Part shown: positions 4,053-61,617 of the stretch, one piece after another
Layout of the letters: each line of letters begins with the position of its first letter
Numbering within the stretch: position 1 is the first letter of the stretch
NCBI RefSeq assembly: GCF_900116715.1
Contig: NZ_FPBM01000011.1
Span: 1-64,000, forward strand
Length of the DNA stretch: 64,000 nucleotides
Direction of reading: 5' to 3'
Source: Polaromonas sp. YR568
Lineage (GTDB): Bacteria > Pseudomonadota > Gammaproteobacteria > Burkholderiales > Burkholderiaceae_C
Translations under genes and position numbers: made by a program
The notes under the pieces: generated by a model
Seen by the model: only the letters and a program-made list of their open reading frames with translations
Databases searched by the model: none
What the model was told of the DNA's origin: nothing

Positions 4053-8165
<4,113 letters not shown>

Positions 8166-51367: not shown

Positions 51368-53500
51368 ATGTCGTCACCCTCTCCCGCGTCCTCCGCTGCG
51401 TCCCCCATCGCCTCTGGCCTGAACCTCGCCCAGCAAGAAGCCGTCAATTACCTGCATGGCCCCTGCCTGGTGCTGGCCGGCGCCGGTTCGGGCAAGACGC
51501 GGGTGATCACGCACAAGATAGGTCGGCTGATCCAGTCGGGGCTCAAGCCCGAGCAGATCGCCGCGATCACCTTTACCAACAAGGCCGCCGCCGAAATGCG
51601 TGAGCGGGCCAAGGCACTGATCGGCAAAAGCGCCAAGGGCGTGCTGGTCTGCACCTTCCATGCGCTGGGTGTGCGCATGCTGCGCCAGGACGGCGCGGCG
51701 CTGGGCCTCAAACCCCAGTTCTCCATCCTCGACAGCGACGACGTGACCAGCATTCTGAAAGACGCCGGCGGCAGCACCGATGCGGCCACGGCGCGGCAAT
51801 GGCAGTGGACCATCAGCCTCTGGAAGAACATGGGCCTCAATGCGGCTGAGGCCATGGCGCAGGCCAATGGCGATGAAGAACGCGCCATCGCCCGCGTGAT
51901 GGCGCACTATGAAGAACGCCTGACAGCCTACCAAAGCGTCGACTTCGACGACCTGGTGGGTTTGCCGCTCAAGCTGCTGCGCGAGCACGACAGCGTGCGC
52001 ACCAAGTGGCAGGACTCTTTGGGCCATGTGCTGGTCGATGAATACCAGGACACCAACGCCACGCAATACGAAATGCTCAAGCTGCTGGTGGGCCCGCGCG
52101 GGCGCTTCACCGCGGTGGGCGACGACGACCAGTCCATCTACGGCTGGCGCGGCGCCACGCTGGACAATCTGAAGAAGCTGCCGCAGGACTATCCCAACCT
52201 CAAGGTCGTGAAGCTCGAGCAGAACTACCGCTCCACCAGCGCCATCCTGCGCGCGGCCAACAATGTGATTGGCCCCAATCCCAAGCTCTTTCCCAAGACA
52301 CTGTTCAGCGAGCTTGGTGAAGGTGAGCCGGTGCGTGTGATCGATTGCGACAGCGAAGAGCACGAGGCCGAGCGTGTAGTGGCCCGCATCCAGAGCCTGC
52401 GCGCCGAAGGCAGCCTGCAGGCCGAAGGCGGGCAGTTCAAGGAGTGGAAAGACTTTTGTGTGCTCTACCGCGCCAACCACCTGGCCAAACCTTTCGAGAA
52501 AGCCTTTCGCAAGGCCAACATTCCCTACAAGGTCTCAGGTGGGCAAAGCTTTTTTGACCGTGCGGAGATCAAGGACCTGTGCTGCTGGATGCGCCTGCTC
52601 GTCAACAACAACGACGACCCGGCGTTTATGCGCGCGGTGACCACGCCCAAGCGCGGCATAGGCCACACCACGCTGGGCGCTTTAGGCAACTTTGCCAGCC
52701 AGTCCAAACAAAGCCTGTTTGAAGCGCTTTTCAGCAACTCGCTGGGCTCGGTGCTGCCGGCCAAGGCGGTCGGCTCGCTGCACGAATTTGGCCGTTACCT
52801 CAACGACCTCGAGTACCGCGCCAAACGCACCGTGGGCGCCGAAGACGCGCGCGCCTTTCTGAACGACTGGCTCAAGGAAATCGATTACGAAAAACACCTG
52901 TACGACGGCGAAGACAGCGAAAAGCTGGCTGCCGCGCGCTGGACCAACGTGATGGATTTTTGCGACTGGGTGGCCCAGCGCTGCGGCGGGCAGATCGACG
53001 ACACCTCAGGCGCAGTCGTGGCTGCCGAAACCAAAACCATGCTGGAAGTGGTGCAGACGATTGCGCTGCTCTCGACCATCAGCGAACGCGAGGGCGACCA
53101 GAACGTGGTGACGCTTTCCACCCTGCACGCCGCCAAAGGGCTGGAGTGGCCGCATGTGGTGCTGGCCGGCGTCAACGAGGGCCTGCTGCCCTTCAAGCTC
53201 GAAGACGACGACGGCAGCAACACCGACAACATCGCACTGCGCCTGCAGGAAGAGCGCCGCCTGATGTACGTGGGCATCACCCGCGCACAGCGCACGCTGG
53301 CGGTGAACTGGCTGCGCAAACGCAAAAAAGGCCGCGACATGATTCCCGGTGCGCCCAGCCGCTTCATCGCCGAGATGGCGCTGGACAAGGCCACGGTGAA
53401 AGAAGATCCGCGCGAAAAGCTCAAGGCTTTGCGTGCGGAGTTTGCCAAGAAGTCAGCGGATGGGATTGCGGCGGCTGCCGCGGCGGCAGAGACGCGCTAG
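51368..53500 (+). CDS. rep: ATP-dependent DNA helicase Rep
   Basis: A 710-residue superfamily 1A helicase, closer to Rep than to UvrD: LNLAQQEAVNYLHGPCLVLAGAGSGKTRVI is the Rep-like N-terminus with Walker A, VDEYQDTNATQYE is motif II, and VGDDDQSIYGWRGA and LEQNYRSTS are motifs III-IV. VTLSTLHAAKGLEWP and MYVGITRAQR are motifs V-VI. Rep moves 3'-5' and clears proteins ahead of the replication fork. The repeat array begins 3 bases after the stop. Confidence 0.95.
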   Translation: MSSPSPASSAASPIASGLNLAQQEAVNYLHGPCLVLAGAGSGKTRVITHKIGRLIQSGLKPEQIAAITFTNKAAAEMRERAKALIGKSAKGVLVCTFHALGVRMLRQDGAALGLKPQFSILDSDDVTSILKDAGGSTDAATARQWQWTISLWKNMGLNAAEAMAQANGDEERAIARVMAHYEERLTAYQSVDFDDLVGLPLKLLREHDSVRTKWQDSLGHVLVDEYQDTNATQYEMLKLLVGPRGRFTAVGDDDQSIYGWRGATLDNLKKLPQDYPNLKVVKLEQNYRSTSAILRAANNVIGPNPKLFPKTLFSELGEGEPVRVIDCDSEEHEAERVVARIQSLRAEGSLQAEGGQFKEWKDFCVLYRANHLAKPFEKAFRKANIPYKVSGGQSFFDRAEIKDLCCWMRLLVNNNDDPAFMRAVTTPKRGIGHTTLGALGNFASQSKQSLFEALFSNSLGSVLPAKAVGSLHEFGRYLNDLEYRAKRTVGAEDARAFLNDWLKEIDYEKHLYDGEDSEKLAAARWTNVMDFCDWVAQRCGGQIDDTSGAVVAAETKTMLEVVQTIALLSTISEREGDQNVVTLSTLHAAKGLEWPHVVLAGVNEGLLPFKLEDDDGSNTDNIALRLQEERRLMYVGITRAQRTLAVNWLRKRKKGRDMIPGAPSRFIAEMALDKATVKEDPREKLKALRAEFAKKSADGIAAAAAAAETR

Positions 53501-53503
53501 CCT

Positions 53504-53620
53504 GTTGAATTGTGCTGAAGCCTGCCTCATTCTTTCCATTAAATTCTGACCTACTCTCATTGTTAGGAATAGGCAGGGTCTACGTGGATCAGGCTTGAAC
53601 GGGAATTACTGTTCTAACTG
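53504..53620 (+). repeat. Degenerate partial copy (A) of the 187-bp inverted-repeat element
   Basis: It begins GTTGAATTG-TGCTGAAGCCTG like the other copies and ends with GGGAATTACTGTTCTAACTG, which matches the later part of copy C (54387-54572). The middle third and the right terminal repeat are missing, and it runs straight into copy B. It starts 3 bases after the rep stop. Confidence 0.65.
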
Positions 53621-53807
53621 GTGTTGAATTGCGCTGGAGCCTGAACCAATCTTTTCATCAACTCCGCACCCACACTCCTTGGTCACGATGTAGGCGGCGC
53701 CCCTAGATTTCGCTGCTTTCAGAGGCTAGCAAGGTAGCGCTTATGTGGGTCAGACTTGGATAGAAATTCCCGCGCTAACCGGGTCAGATCTCAGCGGAAT
53801 TCAACAC
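53621..53807 (+). repeat. Inverted-repeat element, copy B (187 bp)
   Basis: Ends GTGTTGAATT (53621-53630) and AATTCAACAC (53798-53807) are perfect reverse complements, and the wider 27-bp ends (53621-53647, 53781-53807) pair at 21 of 27 positions. It aligns with copy C over its whole length, e.g. CACGATGTAG, CCCCTAGATTTC and GCTAGCAAGGTAG. No transposase is present. It resembles a MITE or other structured mobile element. The right end encodes the last residues and stop of the small minus-strand gene at 53784. Confidence 0.85.
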
Positions 53808-54032
53808 TCCATTCGCATCTAAAACGGCCAGTGCCCTCGTGTATGTCTTCTGTCCTTCTATTTCGACCACTACAGAGCGTTGGATACGGAGGCTGTACTT
53901 AGATGATTTCATGGTTTTCCTAATGGGTAGAAGGTAGTGCGTTGATTCTTTGCATCCCAATAAAATTGGATATCTATGCCGCCCGTCTTCATATTCATAG
54001 TGTGACCTACAGGCCCTAGAGAGGTGACTCAA
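53784..54032 (-). CDS. Small hypothetical protein, C-terminus supplied by element B
   Basis: An 82-residue reading frame with lower G+C. Its start is a TTG overlapping the upstream gene's stop by 4 bases (TTGA), so it may be translationally coupled; an internal ATG at 53912 is possible. The last codons (GVLNSAEI and TGA at 53784-53786) come from the terminal repeat of copy B, so the original 3' end was probably replaced or truncated. The middle has RIQRSVVVEIEGQKTYTRA. Family not recognised. Confidence 0.5.
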   Translation of the reverse strand: MSHLSRACRSHYEYEDGRHRYPILLGCKESTHYLLPIRKTMKSSKYSLRIQRSVVVEIEGQKTYTRALAVLDANGVLNSAEI

Positions 54033-54373
54033 TCACGCAAGTACCACCAAGAACAATACAAATTTGGCTCGAGAGTCACTTCGGCCTCTGATTTCCCGCC
54101 GGGAGTATCAAATACAACATGAATACCTGAACCTCTTTGAGTGGAGCGAATTTCTATCAAGCTTGCATTTTCCGAAGACACGGAGACCATCTCTTGGCCA
54201 GCAGATCTCAAAACGACCTGAAACGATTCAGAAACGGCACTGAAGGAAAAATCTAATTCACTTGCACCGTTGTTCGACGTTTTTACGTACCGGCAGTAAG
54301 CCATTGACGCATCAACTTCAACAGGCTCAATCCCAAAAGACTGCAAGAAGTCCAATTCGCTAGGAAATTTCAT
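54029..54373 (-). CDS. Small lower-GC protein between two elements; orphan immunity-like candidate
   Basis: A 114-residue protein from ATG 54373, 14 bases from the edge of copy C, with AGAGAAG upstream. The frame is open to 54445, but those residues are inside copy C and lack support. Sequence begins MKFPSELDFLQSFGIEPVEV and ends CSWWYLRD; it is acidic and beta-rich, without signal or membrane helix. Its place directly downstream of the truncated TpsA gene suggests a polymorphic-toxin immunity protein, but no family is recognised. The next small gene overlaps by 4 bases. Confidence 0.6.
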   Translation of the reverse strand: MKFPSELDFLQSFGIEPVEVDASMAYCRYVKTSNNGASELDFSFSAVSESFQVVLRSAGQEMVSVSSENASLIEIRSTQRGSGIHVVFDTPGGKSEAEVTLEPNLYCSWWYLRD

Positions 54374-54386
54374 TTTTCTTCTCTTA

Positions 54387-54572
54387 GTGTTGAATTGCAT
54401 TGAGGTTTGATCCAATCTTTCCATCAACTCTTGACCCAGACTCATTGATCACGATGTAGACGCCTCCCCTAGATTTCTCTGCCTTCAAAGCTAGCAAGGT
54501 AGAGTCTAGGCGGGCGACGATTGGATGGAAATTACTGCTTTAACCGGATCAAATTTCGACGGAATTCAACAC
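54387..54572 (+). repeat. Inverted-repeat element, copy C (186 bp)
   Basis: The 10-bp ends GTGTTGAATT and AATTCAACAC (54563-54572) are perfect reverse complements; the 27-bp ends pair at 22 of 27. Positions 20-27 of the ends differ from copy B but still pair with each other (TTTGATCC on both sides), which is covariation. The right end overlaps the last 7 bases of the TpsA gene and provides its stop codon (54566-54568). Confidence 0.85.
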
Positions 54573-57500
54573 GCGGTGTTCTGGATGTCTGCGACGGTCA
54601 GGGTGCCGCCGGTTTTGAAGCTGTTTTTCTGGGCATTGACGGCCTGGGTGTCGCTGGCGATGACGCTGCCCAGAAGGGCGGTATTGCCCGCTACGCTGAC
54701 CTGGAAGCCGCCGCTTCCAGCCTTGATGCCGCTTTGCTCACCGACGCTATTGAAGTTACTGTTGATATTGCTCTTGGAGGCGTTGAAGCTGCCGCTCATG
54801 TTGCCCCAACCCACGCTCACCGAGCCACCCATGCTCTTTTGTTCGCTGGTGTAGGTGCTGGTGTCTTGTAAAGAGGCAATGTTGAGGTTGCCGCCCACAT
54901 CGGCTTTGACCTGGTTGGCCTTGACTACCGCGCCTTGCAGCGTGGTGTCGCCGCCGCTGGTGATGCTGACCTGCTCGCCGGCCTTGACCTGGGTGTTGGT
55001 GTAGAAGGTGTCTGCCCCGTCGCCCCGGCCTTTGCCGCCGCTGGCGCTGGCGTTGAACAGCAAGCCGCTGGTGCCGTAGCTGATGCCCAGGCTGCCGGAG
55101 CTGTTGCTGTTGGTGCTGTTCTGGCTGGCGGTGTTTTGTGCAGCGAGGAGCTTGACCTGGTTGTCCGCCAGCAGCTGCACTGCTCGGCCGGCTTCTATGT
55201 TGCTGCCTTGAATGGTAAGGTTGCTGTCTGCGCCTGCACCGGTGGCAGCGATGGTGATGGTGCCGCCTGCGGTGACGGCGCTGCCCCGGCCTGTGTTGCT
55301 TTGGCTGAGCGAGTTGCTCTGGCTCTGGCTGCTGCCTATGCTGATGGCGACGTTGATGCCGCCTGCTTTGTCGGCGTCGTTGGCGTCGCGGCTGGTGGTC
55401 TTGCCGTCGGCATCTTTACCGGTGACTATCTGGCCCTCTTTGTCACCGATCTTGACGCCCTGCCCGGCCTTGATCGCGTCATAAGCGCTCTTGCCGGCCA
55501 GACCGGCGTTGGCCAATGCCAAGACTTGTGCGCGGCTGTCTTTGGTGTTACTGGTCGCTTCGCTCATCTTGTCGATGGTCTGCATGGCGCTGATGACGGG
55601 CGAGGTGACTTCCAGTGTCAGGCCGGTCTGCTTGAATTTCTGCTCGGTCTCGCTACGGCTGGTTTCGCGGGCCTCAACAATGTCGACCTTCTTGGCGACG
55701 ATGGTGACGTCGCCGCCCGGGGCCATCACGTCACTGCCGACCTGCTTGTACGCCTCATTGGCCACCAGGGTGACGTTGCCGCCAATGCTGCCCACGGTGC
55801 TGGCGGCGGCGGTGGTGCCGCGGTTCTTCTGCTCGGTGGATTGTTCACGCGTGCCGACGGTGATGCCGGCGCCGCCGCCGTCGAGCAGGCCGGACTCTAT
55901 CTTTTCATGGAAGGAGGTGGAGCCGCTGGTGTTCTGCGCGGCCTCGATGCTCAAGTTGTTGCCGGCGGCCAGGGTGGTGCCGGTGTCGCTGATGACGGTG
56001 GAGCCTTTGACGTTGATGTCTTTACCGGCCACCACGGTGACGGTGTTACCGCCGAAGCTGGAGCCGACGGCATTGTTCTGCTCGCTGGTGCGGCGCTCGG
56101 TGGTGGTGCTGGAGCTGAAGAGGTCGCCCTCTGTGGTCTTCAGTGCAAAGCCGACGCTGTTGGTCTGCCGGCCTTCGGTGATGTTGACGTTGTTGCCTGC
56201 GCTGGCCGTGAGGTCACCGCCGGCCTGCACGTTGGCGGCCTTGGCGTTGAGGTCTTTGCCGGCAATCAGATTCAGGCGGCCGGCGGTTTGCAGCTGGCTG
56301 CCCACGTCTGTGGTCTGGTTGCTCTGCAGGAAGTGGTCTTCACCGCGGGACTGCAGGCTGCTGCTGGCGGTGGCGACGGTGCCCAGGTTGATGTTGTTGC
56401 CGGCGCTGACGACGGTACTACCGTTGGCGCCGCTGTTGGAGATGACCCCCGCGATGATGTTGGCGTCGCGCCCGGCGCTGGCCACCAGGGTGCCGCCCGG
56501 GTTGCTGACATACAGACCCGCCACACGGTCTATCCCCGTGAGGCTGAAGCTTTTGGAGCTGGTGCCGCCGGTCTGGTTGCTGGCGCTGCTGGTGGTCGTA
56601 ACGACGTTGAGGTCGCGCCCGGCGCTGGCGTTGAGGCTGGTGGCGGCAATGATTTGCCCGCCGATGTTGTTCAAATCGTTGCGGGCGGCCACGGTGAGCG
56701 CGTCACCGGTGATGCGCCCGCCCAGGTTCTGCACGTTCTCGGCGGTCAGGTTGACGACGGTGCGGCCGGCCACGGTGCCGCTGTTGCTCATGTCGCCTGC
56801 CAGGTTGATGTTGACGCTTTTGCCGGCCAGCAGGGCGCCTGTGAGTGCAAGGTCGCCGTCTTTGACGTGCACATAGACCTGGGGCACCAGGGCGCGCGTT
56901 TTGCTGCCGTCGGCGAGGGTCACTTCCTGCTCAACGAGCCAGACGATGTCGCTGGTGAGCTGGGCCATCTGCTGAGCGCTCAGGGCGATGCCGGGGCGCA
57001 GGTTGTAGGTTTGGGCATAGGTGATGCCGGCGTCCATCAGGGCTTTGTACTGGACTTCTTCACTGGTGTAGTTGCCCAGGAAGCGCTGGCCGGTGAGCTG
57101 GGCCACTTGCTCGTTGATCAAACGCTGCTCGTAGAAACCGTCGCCCAGGCGCTTTTGCGTAACGGTCGGGTCCAGCGCGAGCTGGCCCAGCATGTAGTCG
57201 CTGCCCAGCCAGGTGCGGTAGTTGGCAAAGCGCAGGTCGGTTTCGATCAGGAAGCCGCCGGCCGGATTGGGGTTGAGGCGAAAGAGGCTCGTGGTGGGGA
57301 TGCTGAGGTTGACGGGCACGGTGTGCACGCCGGCCGCGCTGAGCGCGCCAGGTGTGGTGGGGATGCTGCCGATGCTGGCGCCGGCTGCCGCGGCCACTTG
57401 CGTGCCGGTGCCGCCGGGCGCGGTAAAGCTGCGGCTTTGGAAGGCGTTGAGCGTGATGGTTTGCGGCACATCTTGCGTGTAGGGGCCGTCGCGATAGGCG

Positions 57501-60500
57501 TTGTAGTTGTAGTCGCAGCCGTCAAAGCCGCCGCAGCCTTCGTTGTAGTTGCTCCAGAAGTAGGCGGTGCCGTTGCGCTGTGCATTGACGCTGACGGTGC
57601 GGCCGCGGTTGTCGACAGCCTGGCCGGTGATGTTGAGGGCGCCGCCCGCGATGATCTGGCTCTGGTCGTTGACGAGAGCGGTGGCCGCATGCAGCGTCAT
57701 GGCGCCGGCGCTGAGGATGCGGCCCGGGCTGCTTTGTGTGATGACGGGCGTTTGCGGCGTCGAGGTGTAGTCGCGAAAGCCCTCGACGATGACGGCGTTG
57801 GCGACGACGGTCATGCGCATCGCATCAATCTGCGCCTGCAGTGCGATCCACGGGGCGGGGTCCACATCAGACGTGGTCTGCGGCCGGGCAACGCCGAAAA
57901 CATCCCACACAGGACTGCTGGCGTCGTAGCCAAAAAACGCCGCAACAGGGGTTGACACCAGGCCGTCCCGGAAGCCCGTCAGCAGATTGTGCGCAGGAAC
58001 GTAGGCGCTGGGGCCGAGAAAGTACGGCGCGTACTTGATGTCCGAGTAAGGAGCCCCCTTCAGCAGCAGGCGGCCCCTGCCGTCAACGTTGAGGTGACCG
58101 GTGTAGGGCGGTACGCCGTCTTCCGACGCCCAGCGTCCGGGGCCGCCATAGATCTGCTCCTTGCTCGTCGTGTCCCAGTAGGCGTAGCCGCCGCCAATAC
58201 CTGTCTTGTAGGTCTCGGCGCTGACCACCCAGCCCACATCGTTCGCCGTGTAATTGCCTTGCGCTGTGATGTACTCCCTGCCGCTGCCGCTGCCGCTGCC
58301 GCTGCCACTGCTGGCGCTGCCCGTCTGCACGGTGTAGGCGAAGTTGGGGTTGGTGTTGTTGATCTGGCCGGCCGTGATGGCCAGGCCGCCCAGCGACTCG
58401 ATGGTGCCGCCGCTGTTGTTGACAGCGCCGGCCTGGCCTGTGGCATGGCCGGCGCCGTCCAGGCTGCCGCCAATGGTGAGCGCATCGACCGCCGTACCGC
58501 CGCTGAAGATCAGCGCGCCTTCGCCGTTGTTCAAAGTCTGCGTACCGATGTCGAGCCGGTTACGGGCGGCGATCACGGCATCGGCACGCGTGCTGCCTAC
58601 GGTTTCGGTGCTGTTGTTGACGGTGGTGGCGGCAATGGCGACATGGTCGCCGTAGATGCGACCGGTGCCGATGTTGGTCAGGGTGGCGGCGTTGATGCGG
58701 GTCTCGGTGCCATCGATGACGCCGCGATTGGTAAAGGTGTTGGCGGCGGTGACCGTGGTGTTGACGCCGCTGATCACGCCAGTGGCGGCGTTGTTGACAT
58801 TGGCGGCTGAAGCGGCCAGGTTGCGCCCAGCCTGCAGTTTGCCGCTGTTGCTGAGGTTACCGGTGGTGGAGACGCTGACGTCGCGGTTGGCGATAACGTC
58901 GCCGGTGTTGTTGAAGTCACTGGTCAGCGTGAGCGACAAGTCCTGCTGCGACAGCAGGCTGCCGTTGCCGCCCAGGCTGGCGGCGTTGGCCGAGAGGGAA
59001 AGACCGGCAATGACGGTGCCTCCCGCATTGGTGACGGCCAGCGTCCTGGTGGCGGCCGTGTCTTGCAATGTGGCCGTGTTACCCGCACTGATCAGGCCGG
59101 CGTTATTGTTGATGCTGCCGGAGCTGGTGACGGTGGCGTTGACGCTGGTGCGTATCGCGCCCGAATCATTGGCGATCGAGGCGGCTGTGATGGCGATGTT
59201 TTTGCCCTCCACGCCCTGGTTGGCGGCGGAGGTGTTGCTGTTGACCACGCTGGCAGCGGCCAATGTGACCGTCTCATCGCTGCGGACCAGGCCGCCGGTG
59301 TTGGTGATGACGCCAGGCCCTGCGGCCACAGAGACATTGCCCACGGCCTGCAGCTGGCCGCCGCTGTTGTTGAAGCCGGTGGTGGTGAAGTCTGCAGTGG
59401 ATTCGCTGACGATCTGTCCGCCGGCGTTGCTCACATTGCCTGCGGTGGCGGTCAACGCGCTCTTCGCCCCGATAGAGCCGGTTGCGTTGTTCAGTTCGCC
59501 CGTCAGCAGGTTGACGGCGCCCTGGGACGTGATGCCGCCCGCGCCGCCGCTGTAGCCCGCAGCGTTCGTGTTTGTCAGCGTCTGGCCGTGGGTGTTGATT
59601 GCCAATGCGCCGGTGGATTGAATCAGGCCGGCGGTGTTGGTCAGCGCGCCGCTGGCTATCGTGGTGATGCCGCTGGCAGAGACGGTGCCGCCAGTGTTGT
59701 TGAACGCTTGCAGGTGGGTGTCGACGCTGATGGCTGTGCCAGTGATGGTGCTGCCGGTGTTGATCAACCCTGTGTTGCTTAGCGTGACGTTGCCGCCGGC
59801 GCTCAAACGCCCGCCCTGTGCCGCGCCGCCGGCCACGGTGTTGCTGGTGGCGCCCGTGGTGGTCACGGCGAGGTAGCCGCTCACCGAGGCGACGGTGCCG
59901 GACGCATTGGACAGGCTGGCGGCGTTGACGGTGACCGCACCGTTACCTGCAACAGTGGCTTGCGTGTTTTGCAGTGCGCCTGCCGCAGTGACAGTCAGGG
60001 TGCCGTTGGCCACGATCATGGCGCCTGCTTCATTGGCGAGGCCGGCGCCCGTGCTGATGCTGCTGTTGCCCTGGGCGCTGATGACCGCGCCGGCGCCGGT
60101 GTTGGTGATGGCGCCGGTTGTGGTGATGTAGGTATTGCCTGTGGCCTGGATTTGCCCGCTGTTGGTGAGCCACCCGTTAGCCTGTAGCACCAGATCGCCG
60201 CCGCTCGCGCCTATAACGCCGGCGTTGCGCACGCCCAGACCGGTCTCAGTGCCAATAAGGAAAATCTTGCCGGCATACATGCCGCCGACCTGGGCGACGT
60301 CAACAGCGTAAGTAGGTGCCGCGCCAGTTCCAGCGATAGGCGTGGCGCTGGTGTGGTCGGCGTTGATGTCGTTGGCGCCAGTGGCCACGCGCAGCTCTTT
60401 GGCCCAGATGCCGGCGTTGACCTGCACGGCGCGGGCGAGGATGCCGGTGTAGTCGGCCGTAGAAGTGTCCAGGCCCGCGCCGCCCACGGTGATGTTGCCG

Positions 60501-61159
60501 CCCTGCACACGAAAGCCGTCGAGCGCGCCGCCGTTGATGACCGGGGTACCGGTGGTCAACGTGACGCGGCTGGCGTTGAGGAAACCGCCGCCGTTGACGT
60601 TGATGCCGGCCGGGTTGGCGATGACGACTTCGGCGCGCTGGCCGGCGACTTCGACATAACCGCGGATCTGGCTGGGGTTGGCCGACTGCACTTCGTTAAG
60701 GATGACGCGCGCCGGGCCGGTGGCCAGCCAGGGGTTGGCGCCGACAAAACCGCCCAGCTGGGTTTGCACATTGGTACGGCTGTTGTTGAGGATGGCGCCG
60801 TTTTGCTGCACATCAAACTGGCTGTAGGTGTTGCGGCTGACACCGGCTGCGCTGGGCGTCTGGATGTTGACCTGCGGCAGGCCGTTGGCCGTTTGCAGCA
60901 CGGTGGGGCGCTGGCCGGCGGGCGCGCCGGGGGCCGCAACGATTTGCGCGTGCAAGGTTGGCTGTAAACACAGAACCAGGCCCAGCGCCGACAGCACCGC
61001 AAAGCGCAGCGGGTGCAGGCTGGCTTGCAAACCCTGCGGGCCTGCACTGCCGGCCGTGTCGCCGCTGGCGGCTTTGCCCTGGGCGCTGGCGGTTTCGGCC
61101 ACCACCATGCGTTGGCCGCGTTTGGCGTTAAAGACGATGCGGTGCAGGTTTTTGTTCAT
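54566..61159 (-). CDS. TpsA-type filamentous haemagglutinin, C-terminus truncated
   Basis: A 2197-residue secreted adhesin or CDI-type protein starting MNKNLHRIVFNAKRGQRMVV, an extended signal peptide region, with the signal ending about residue 72 (TLHAQ). The TPS secretion domain follows, with NPWLATG, VILNEVQSANPSQIRGYVEV and the NPAGINVNGGGFLNAS motif. Then come long Gly/Asn/Thr beta-helix repeats of the haemagglutinin type and a Gly/Ser run GSASSGSGSGSGSGRE. The C-terminus stops at ADIQNTAC, where homologous toxins continue into a pretoxin and toxin; the last codons and TGA are supplied by copy C of the inverted-repeat element. No TpsB partner is in the window. Confidence 0.88.
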   Translation of the reverse strand: MNKNLHRIVFNAKRGQRMVVAETASAQGKAASGDTAGSAGPQGLQASLHPLRFAVLSALGLVLCLQPTLHAQIVAAPGAPAGQRPTVLQTANGLPQVNIQTPSAAGVSRNTYSQFDVQQNGAILNNSRTNVQTQLGGFVGANPWLATGPARVILNEVQSANPSQIRGYVEVAGQRAEVVIANPAGINVNGGGFLNASRVTLTTGTPVINGGALDGFRVQGGNITVGGAGLDTSTADYTGILARAVQVNAGIWAKELRVATGANDINADHTSATPIAGTGAAPTYAVDVAQVGGMYAGKIFLIGTETGLGVRNAGVIGASGGDLVLQANGWLTNSGQIQATGNTYITTTGAITNTGAGAVISAQGNSSISTGAGLANEAGAMIVANGTLTVTAAGALQNTQATVAGNGAVTVNAASLSNASGTVASVSGYLAVTTTGATSNTVAGGAAQGGRLSAGGNVTLSNTGLINTGSTITGTAISVDTHLQAFNNTGGTVSASGITTIASGALTNTAGLIQSTGALAINTHGQTLTNTNAAGYSGGAGGITSQGAVNLLTGELNNATGSIGAKSALTATAGNVSNAGGQIVSESTADFTTTGFNNSGGQLQAVGNVSVAAGPGVITNTGGLVRSDETVTLAAASVVNSNTSAANQGVEGKNIAITAASIANDSGAIRTSVNATVTSSGSINNNAGLISAGNTATLQDTAATRTLAVTNAGGTVIAGLSLSANAASLGGNGSLLSQQDLSLTLTSDFNNTGDVIANRDVSVSTTGNLSNSGKLQAGRNLAASAANVNNAATGVISGVNTTVTAANTFTNRGVIDGTETRINAATLTNIGTGRIYGDHVAIAATTVNNSTETVGSTRADAVIAARNRLDIGTQTLNNGEGALIFSGGTAVDALTIGGSLDGAGHATGQAGAVNNSGGTIESLGGLAITAGQINNTNPNFAYTVQTGSASSGSGSGSGSGREYITAQGNYTANDVGWVVSAETYKTGIGGGYAYWDTTSKEQIYGGPGRWASEDGVPPYTGHLNVDGRGRLLLKGAPYSDIKYAPYFLGPSAYVPAHNLLTGFRDGLVSTPVAAFFGYDASSPVWDVFGVARPQTTSDVDPAPWIALQAQIDAMRMTVVANAVIVEGFRDYTSTPQTPVITQSSPGRILSAGAMTLHAATALVNDQSQIIAGGALNITGQAVDNRGRTVSVNAQRNGTAYFWSNYNEGCGGFDGCDYNYNAYRDGPYTQDVPQTITLNAFQSRSFTAPGGTGTQVAAAAGASIGSIPTTPGALSAAGVHTVPVNLSIPTTSLFRLNPNPAGGFLIETDLRFANYRTWLGSDYMLGQLALDPTVTQKRLGDGFYEQRLINEQVAQLTGQRFLGNYTSEEVQYKALMDAGITYAQTYNLRPGIALSAQQMAQLTSDIVWLVEQEVTLADGSKTRALVPQVYVHVKDGDLALTGALLAGKSVNINLAGDMSNSGTVAGRTVVNLTAENVQNLGGRITGDALTVAARNDLNNIGGQIIAATSLNASAGRDLNVVTTTSSASNQTGGTSSKSFSLTGIDRVAGLYVSNPGGTLVASAGRDANIIAGVISNSGANGSTVVSAGNNINLGTVATASSSLQSRGEDHFLQSNQTTDVGSQLQTAGRLNLIAGKDLNAKAANVQAGGDLTASAGNNVNITEGRQTNSVGFALKTTEGDLFSSSTTTERRTSEQNNAVGSSFGGNTVTVVAGKDINVKGSTVISDTGTTLAAGNNLSIEAAQNTSGSTSFHEKIESGLLDGGGAGITVGTREQSTEQKNRGTTAAASTVGSIGGNVTLVANEAYKQVGSDVMAPGGDVTIVAKKVDIVEARETSRSETEQKFKQTGLTLEVTSPVISAMQTIDKMSEATSNTKDSRAQVLALANAGLAGKSAYDAIKAGQGVKIGDKEGQIVTGKDADGKTTSRDANDADKAGGINVAISIGSSQSQSNSLSQSNTGRGSAVTAGGTITIAATGAGADSNLTIQGSNIEAGRAVQLLADNQVKLLAAQNTASQNSTNSNSSGSLGISYGTSGLLFNASASGGKGRGDGADTFYTNTQVKAGEQVSITSGGDTTLQGAVVKANQVKADVGGNLNIASLQDTSTYTSEQKSMGGSVSVGWGNMSGSFNASKSNINSNFNSVGEQSGIKAGSGGFQVSVAGNTALLGSVIASDTQAVNAQKNSFKTGGTLTVADIQNTAC

Positions 61160-61617
61160 GGCAATGCGCATGCAAGGGCAAAGCCGGCGCATGACATGCA
61201 TGCGTCGATTTTTTGTTGTGCGAATTTTTGGGTGCACGCTGGCACCATCTGGGGTGATGCACCCAAGTCATCGTGTGGCTTGGCCAATCACGCTCTCCCT
61301 GATTCCGATTTTTTATGGCCCTGAGCCGTGCGCCCAAAGCAGAGGAATTGTAGATTTGGGGAGAGGGGGGCAGTAAGCCGTGTTAGCTTGATTTGGCGAA
61401 AAAATTATTGCGTTCGTTGCCAATCGGAAAGATCAGGCAAACGATAGCGAGTCCACTTGTGTACATGAGCAAAGCGAAATTACCAGTAAATTCACGGCTG
61501 TTTACCCACGTACTTCCTGGGTCGAAGGCTGGTTCAGGTCATGGACTCCGCCGAACATCCTGCTGCCGGCGTTTTAGTCCTTAAGGTCAAGTTAACTTGA
61601 TAGTTATCGCGGGCCCT
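61160..61617. promoter_or_regulatory. Upstream region of the TpsA gene
   Basis: This 458-base gap holds no supported gene. The first part carries a hairpin-forming inverted repeat at 61228-61266 (TTGGGTGCA with TGCACCCAA, 9 bp), which would lie in the TpsA leader or promoter. A perfect 14-bp palindrome TCAAGTTAACTTGA (61587-61600) lies near the PhnD-type gene stop. The middle section (about 61380-61560) is locally AT-rich and could hold the promoter. Confidence 0.45.

Follow-up and report, generated by a model that had tools for sequence, protein, structure and literature searches.

The stretch of Polaromonas sp. YR568 DNA analysed here (64,000 nucleotides of contig NZ_FPBM01000011.1; subsequently designated the window) carries a cluster of short repeats that bracket two small genes between rep and an FHA/CdiA-type exoprotein gene, which raises the question of what these repeats are and how they came to lie in this place. 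A first-pass annotation had described two copies of about 187 bp, B and C, lying in the same orientation and preceded by a partial copy A. Indeed, alignment recovered B and C at these places and in this orientation, with 78% identity to each other, and the matching of their 27-bp ends was reproduced (21/27 for B, 22/27 for C). The constant tips read TGTTG...CAACA, which sets the limits of the elements proper as listed in Table 1; the outer G and C beyond these tips vary among relatives. Copy A is partial as described, adjoins rep, beginning 2 bases past the rep stop codon, and runs into B. It aligns to positions 1-64 and 2436-2482 of the parent element introduced below, i.e. the left end is kept and the final 24 bp of the right end, where B begins, are missing. 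In this respect copy A resembles a 142-bp copy on contig C11 of the same genome (G000). A similarity search with B retrieved C (E 6e-37) and a further copy on contig C15 of this genome (E 2e-17), and 8 matches to B were counted in the genome altogether. The repeats A, B and C are thus confirmed as real and beyond chance.

Table 1. Features of the repeat cluster and its surroundings in the window.
Feature	Position	Strand	Description
Island (A, B, orphan gene, C, FHA)	53503..61604	.	about 8.1 kb, between rep and convergent gene
Copy A	53503..53621	+	partial short IS21-type element; from nhmmer end model, alignments and empty sites
Copy B	53622..53806	+	185-bp MITE-like IS21-family derivative without transposase gene
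B left tip, repeat L1	53622..53647	+	L2 follows, to about 53672
B right tip, repeat R1	53781..53806	-	R2 lies inward of R1
42-aa gene stub	53784..53912	-	end runs into copy B
Intact 114-aa gene	54029..54373	-	probable orphan CDI-type immunity gene
Copy C	54388..54571	+	184-bp MITE-like IS21-family derivative; right (istA-side) tip flush with FHA gene
C left tip, repeat L1	54388..54413	+	L2 follows
C right tip, repeat R1	54546..54571	-	R2 lies inward of R1
FHA/CdiA-type two-partner-secretion exoprotein gene	54566..61237	-	3' end cut; no toxin domain left

The repeats had been suspected to be MITE-like and to depend on a transposase acting in trans, and a full element with the same ends was sought. 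It was found in the complete, one-contig genome of a sister species (G072), where two identical copies of 2506 bp share the same tips (L073/L074), and its existence supports this prediction. The 2506-bp parent comprises a 514-aa IstA ORF and a 277-aa IstB ORF. IstB matches PF01695 (E 4e-80), while IstA matches PF22483 (Mu-transpos_C_2) and the structures of IS5376 IstA (E 6e-20 and 9e-20); Pfam rve was absent from the IstA matches. The nearest named relative found, in plasmid records, is IS1600, which has tips of like kind and is a separate element, its IstA being 78% identical to that of the parent. Other matches in the genus hold IstA-start and IstB-end sequence within the same tips. Each end of the parent carries two repeats ending in TGACCC (left positions 21 and 45, right positions 21 and 55), and both repeat positions of either end, L1/L2 and R1/R2, are retained in B and C. 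Such L1/L2 and R1/R2 repeats are described for the ends of the IS21 family, and two complete repeats per end are required for integration of IS5376, according to the available part of PMC10122671. In B and C, sequence aligning to the parent's first 60 bp is joined by a short linker to sequence aligning to its last 105 bp, and both istA and istB have been lost. Common ancestry with the IS is evident from these alignments, and A, B and C are, as judged from their sequences, internally deleted, transposase-less and hence MITE-like derivatives of the IS21 family.

The first-pass annotation had also asked whether the repeat occurs elsewhere. A search model built from five copies, using sequence only and no base pairs, defined a 185-195-bp class with six full-length matches in 4 of the 87 genomes of the genus: B, C, G000:C15, G032:C8, G079:C199 and a more diverged member in G072. 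Outside the genus, no full-length match was obtained among 299 genomes of the family, and 24 genomes from other families of the order gave none. Plasmids gave no DNA-level match, and a pattern scan of a genome contig collection, from which very near genomes may be missing, returned 0. G000:C15 and G079:C199 represent the same chromosomal site and are not independent; the six copies stand at perhaps four independent loci. B, C, G032:C8, G000:C15 and G079:C199 share a common deletion zone, in which the inner breakpoints are near each other and not identical, falling at 60-88 on the left and at 2392-2402 on the right of the 2506-bp parent (agreement within ~10-30 bp). The genus also holds longer IS derivatives of 466-606 bp. 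All 14 of those aligned (from G026, G032, G072, G074 and G079) have their istA-side breakpoint at 2136-2140 of 2506, and the breakpoint on the other side is variable, at about 96-240. Copies of this kind in G072 match flanking parts of the full IS with 100% identity and occur as identical pairs at different sites, indicating that the family was recently active there. Derivatives of this size (L158, L160, L161 and others) keep the HTH part at the start of IstA (~84 codons), and a shortened DNA-binding protein made from it might act as a repressor of the IS. The 142-bp type on G000 contig C11 completes the ladder. Further remnants were seen in passing: 55-bp near-palindromes consisting of two IS tips back to back (L120 6165-6219 in G072; L124 6137-6191 in G032:C14), and IS-end relics (L124 5822-6191 in G032:C14; L037 7281-7338 in G033:C20) near genes that, from inspection of the translations by eye, are candidates for ubiquitin-like/E1-E2-type defence genes. 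An unrelated short dispersed repeat lies at L088 about 8049-8111 in G079 and also occurs in G072 and G074 loci.

As noted from the sequence before, the stretch bracketed by B and C is lower in GC (0.448 compared to 0.622 for the window). Both of its small genes are present; however, only the 114-aa gene is intact, while the 42-aa gene is a stub. Neither product has a Pfam or NCBIfam match, and no plasmid match was obtained for the stub. Homologues of the 114-aa product with 56-61% identity were found in four named genomes. In Pseudomonas vlassakiae, the homologue (56%) starts 10 bp after the gene for a DUF637/PT-VENN protein, i.e. in the position of an immunity gene. The toxin neighbour is clear for this one of the four named homologues, and no toxin gene was seen beside two others; the Salinicola homologue starts 57 bp from the end of the locus, with other small genes after it. 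In G079:C199, a truncated homologue comprising the first part adjoins the MITE at its right tip. By position and homology, the 114-aa gene is a probable orphan immunity gene.

On the other side of C, the FHA gene encodes TPS, ESPR and hemagglutinin (Fil_haemagg_2) domains, as assigned by Pfam (PF05860, PF13332, PF13018 and PF05594). Its product has 2223 aa in comparison to 2704 aa in the relative from G032, with a DNA identity of 86.7%. The reading frame ends with ...ADIQNTA followed by TGT TGA, a Cys codon and stop that are supplied by the tip of C, and homology to the FHA genes of G032, G079 and contig C15 stops exactly at this tip (at 54573 in case of G032). Within the window, the FHA gene has no C-terminal toxin domain with cognate immunity gene, and only the orphan immunity-like gene remains. 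C is 87.6% identical to its counterpart in G032, which is about the divergence of the adjoining FHA genes. Spread of the copies along with FHA islands is therefore the simplest account, rather than fresh transposition.

The class is associated with toxin genes. All six members are located within 1.5 kb of such a gene, which is FHA/CdiA-type in five cases and Rhs in one. Among 43 other places at which this IS family was tested, the same holds for 2 (L034 and L169); ~9 of the 43 are at contig ends and show one flank only. The one-sided Fisher test yields 2e-6 when counted by copy and 8e-5 with four independent loci (FHA and Rhs), where the toxin queries were taken from the element loci, so that self-matches are certain there and relatives elsewhere are detectable only by homology. 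The test is based on 54 places, from which copy A was excluded and four relics were set apart to give the six class members and the 43 others; some weaker genus matches stand outside it. One of the four relics (L121) is 479 bp away from an Rhs gene, and none of seven additional weak places is near a toxin gene. The association is strong in numbers, but the independent loci behind it are few. PF13332 FHA genes are uncommon in the genus (8 of 87 genomes, 11 contigs), and the class is found on four of these contigs and absent from seven. A third PF13332 FHA gene of the window's genome (G000:C8 64565-66454) has no 185-195-bp copy beside it according to the genus search.

The arrangement at these loci follows a pattern. 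All five copies at the four FHA loci have their istA-side tip pointing towards the FHA gene, and the toxin ends differ from locus to locus, with EndoU on C15, glutamine deamidase in G032 and Ntox47 in G079. On C15, the order is FHA-EndoU, a 137-aa gene, the MITE and a 119-aa gene, the latter having a sub-threshold match to Imm2 (E 1e-4; 22.7 bits with a cut-off of 35.7). At G032:C8, C15 and G079:C199, remnants of FHA sequence (33-48 bp) directly adjoin the elements or come close to doing so. Comparison of the orthologous loci G000:C15 and G079:C199 reveals the MITE as an island of homology in an otherwise different stretch. The G072 member follows an Rhs gene whose end is weakly ParB-like and which has a small gene downstream. 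In G032:C7 (L121 5401-6293), small genes that follow an Rhs gene are flanked on either side by IS-end relics, much as in the window.

Transposition in the IS21 family generates target-site duplications of 4-8 bp. Those that had been expected around the repeats were not found at B and C. In a scan of 28 elements, at the tips as well as with a 1-base shift, duplications were missing from all six class copies and from 27 of the 28 elements, including young ones and both full-length IS copies of G072. Duplications shuffled between the G072 copies were not detected either. The sole flush duplication, of 6 bp, belongs to a 486-bp copy in G079 (L087/L168), and the 3-bp match at the Rhs-linked copy is at chance level. 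With the shifted scan, two elements had at least 4 bp, and as many or more were obtained in 286 of 5000 shuffles. Adjacent deletions are named as a frequent cause of missing duplications in the available text of PMC11708052. Flush joins together with missing duplications are what such deletions leave, which points to adjacent deletion as the probable mechanism. Concerning a helper, the assembly that contains the window yielded no IstA sequence past residue 92. Contigs C7, C8, C9, C20 and C22 of this assembly have ends within IS derivative copies, i.e. the assembly breaks at the repeat and full-length copies could be hidden; a helper may accordingly be absent or concealed.

To place the cluster in its chromosomal context, the rep site was read in 6 of 85 genomes that carry rep. 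Five relatives (G072, G079, G032, G066 and G003) have an empty site, in which rep is directly followed by the convergent gene and the island is absent, whereas the gene order differs at this site in G064. The island starts at the tip of A on the left, and its right edge falls between 61605 and 61625. A search with the end model (E threshold 10) detected no IS end at the right edge. Matching ends on both sides together with a target duplication, as they characterize a composite transposon, were not found for the island.

We consider it probable that A, B and C are IS1600-like IS21 MITEs and passengers of an FHA toxin-tail island, in which tip-flush deletions left an orphan immunity gene. Internal deletion would have removed istA and istB and spared both ends with their predicted pairs of transposase-binding repeats, through which IstA and IstB made elsewhere could once have moved A, B and C. 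The elements would have settled in the toxin/immunity tail of an FHA/CdiA-type gene, presumably a dispensable and fast-changing stretch, and would have travelled with the island. Subsequently, tip-flush deletions, which are probably adjacent deletions made by transposase, would have cut back the FHA gene at C, where the 3' part encoding the toxin was lost, and copy A at its junction with B, and would have erased any target duplications. The putative immunity gene would have stayed behind between B and C.

Other explanations for the repeats have to be weighed against this one. The first-pass annotation had read the inner positions, which differ between the copies and still pair within each copy, as evidence of selected structure, and had considered an RNA-structured element. 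Literally, such positions exist, but they are few and provide no evidence for selection: the left and right ends of an element match each other at 19.4 of 27 positions on average (8 elements), and ends taken from different elements do so at 19.1 of 27 (56 combinations). The six short elements alone gave the same picture (19.0 for own ends, 18.9 for cross-ends in 30 combinations). The predicted folds are more stable than those of shuffled sequences (z -2.9 for B, -5.8 for C); however, any inverted repeat yields such folds. In an Rfam scan of 53400-54700 nothing reached the gathering score, and the two matches far below it look like chance; the ends are accounted for by the parent IS. An RNA-structured or regulatory element selected for paired ends is therefore highly improbable. 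Quite unlikely, too, is that A, B and C are dead fragments that arose by decay of full-length IS copies in place and were never mobile as miniatures. The lack of target duplications, the failure to see a helper in the genome, and inner breakpoints that are near but not identical would all fit such decay. However, copies with different flanks in four genomes have their deletion zone in common, and the ends of the elements are better kept than the middle. Moreover, the related 466-606-bp derivatives multiplied in G072, as seen from their identical pairs, and one derivative in G079 is flanked by the flush 6-bp duplication.

Two elements of like orientation around lower-GC genes could also suggest that B, the genes and C form one mobile unit, either a composite transposon or an integron-like cassette. 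This is very unlikely, since the outer edges have no duplication, no IS end marks the island on its right and the unit of B, gene and C was not seen elsewhere. As for integron attC sites, their motif order is presumably opposite to that of the element ends. For the earlier proposal that the array carries cargo by recombination between copies, the orphan gene would suit as moveable cargo, but B and C (78%) are less alike than C and the copy in another species, G032 (88-90%), and thus there is no sign of frequent recombination among the copies of this genome. The same comparison speaks against the MITEs being working parts of module exchange, in which the FHA body and the MITE downstream of the immunity genes would serve as the two homology arms. 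Recombination, or rearrangement anchored at the tips, would then swap the modules between loci and leave MITE-bracketed immunity genes. This explanation gains from the location of each full-length copy behind a toxin/immunity tail with a different toxin each time (the three named above, the weak ParB-like end, or none left), from the uniform direction of the istA-side tips, from the homology island shared by G000:C15 and G079:C199, and from the MITE relics flanking small genes in G032:C7. But no exchange event was caught, no identical MITE-flanked module occurs at two loci, and 7 of 11 PF13332 FHA contigs do without a class copy. A role of the MITEs in exchange of toxin/immunity modules is possible, yet as a full explanation we judge it unlikely. 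The same low expectation applies to the idea that a small IS21-type MITE family is nearly confined to toxin/immunity tails and serves as a rearrangement device, with tip-anchored deletions and joins disarming or swapping toxin ends while immunity genes stay. If so, the host would retain protection without the weapon.

In the preferred reading of A, B and C as passenger MITEs, the cluster is a footprint of mobile DNA in a weapons locus and not a new kind of element: an ordinary element type, a MITE-like IS21 derivative, in an interesting place. Its position bears on the gain, loss and stockpiling of toxin and immunity modules at polymorphic toxin loci. The mechanisms by which such modules are exchanged are called unknown in the available part of PMC3150448, and with its tip-exact joins, a defined miniature element at the edges of modules in several species offers concrete breakpoints. 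It also represents a likely IS21-derived MITE family. No earlier report of IS21-derived MITEs or of MITEs at polymorphic-toxin tails was found in a literature search with limited coverage of subscription journals.

The parent agrees with IS1600 and the IS21 family in its TGTTG...AACA tips, the two transposase repeats per end and the position of IstB next to IstA, whereas A, B and C lack istA and istB and target duplications are almost absent. MITEs of Pseudomonas syringae are comparable: MITEPsy1 (100 bp, IS5-type ends, mobile in vivo) and MITEPsy2 (228 bp, Tn3-type ends), as described in the accessible text of PMC3189936. A, B and C are likewise short, gene-less, multi-copy elements that have their ends in common with an autonomous element, but these ends are of IS21 type, full-length members of the 185-195-bp class were found only at toxin tails, and their mobility is putative. 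Association of a contact-dependent inhibition locus with insertion sequences is also known from bcpAIOB of Burkholderia thailandensis, which resides in a 210-kb IS2-like composite transposon with complete ISs of another family and forms a circle (PMC6350997, part available). In contrast, the window has miniature elements only and no IS end at the other edge. With the orphan cdiA-CT/cdiI arrays (PMC3150448) and the immunity-gene strings (PMC3482391), as far as the available parts of these papers describe them, the locus shares an FHA-type exoprotein gene followed by cognate and orphan immunity genes, and IS elements disrupting orphan modules are mentioned in the former. Unlike in those arrays, the toxin end has been deleted in the window, and the module edges are marked by small IS21 derivatives instead of a full IS or the pre-toxin (VENN) region.
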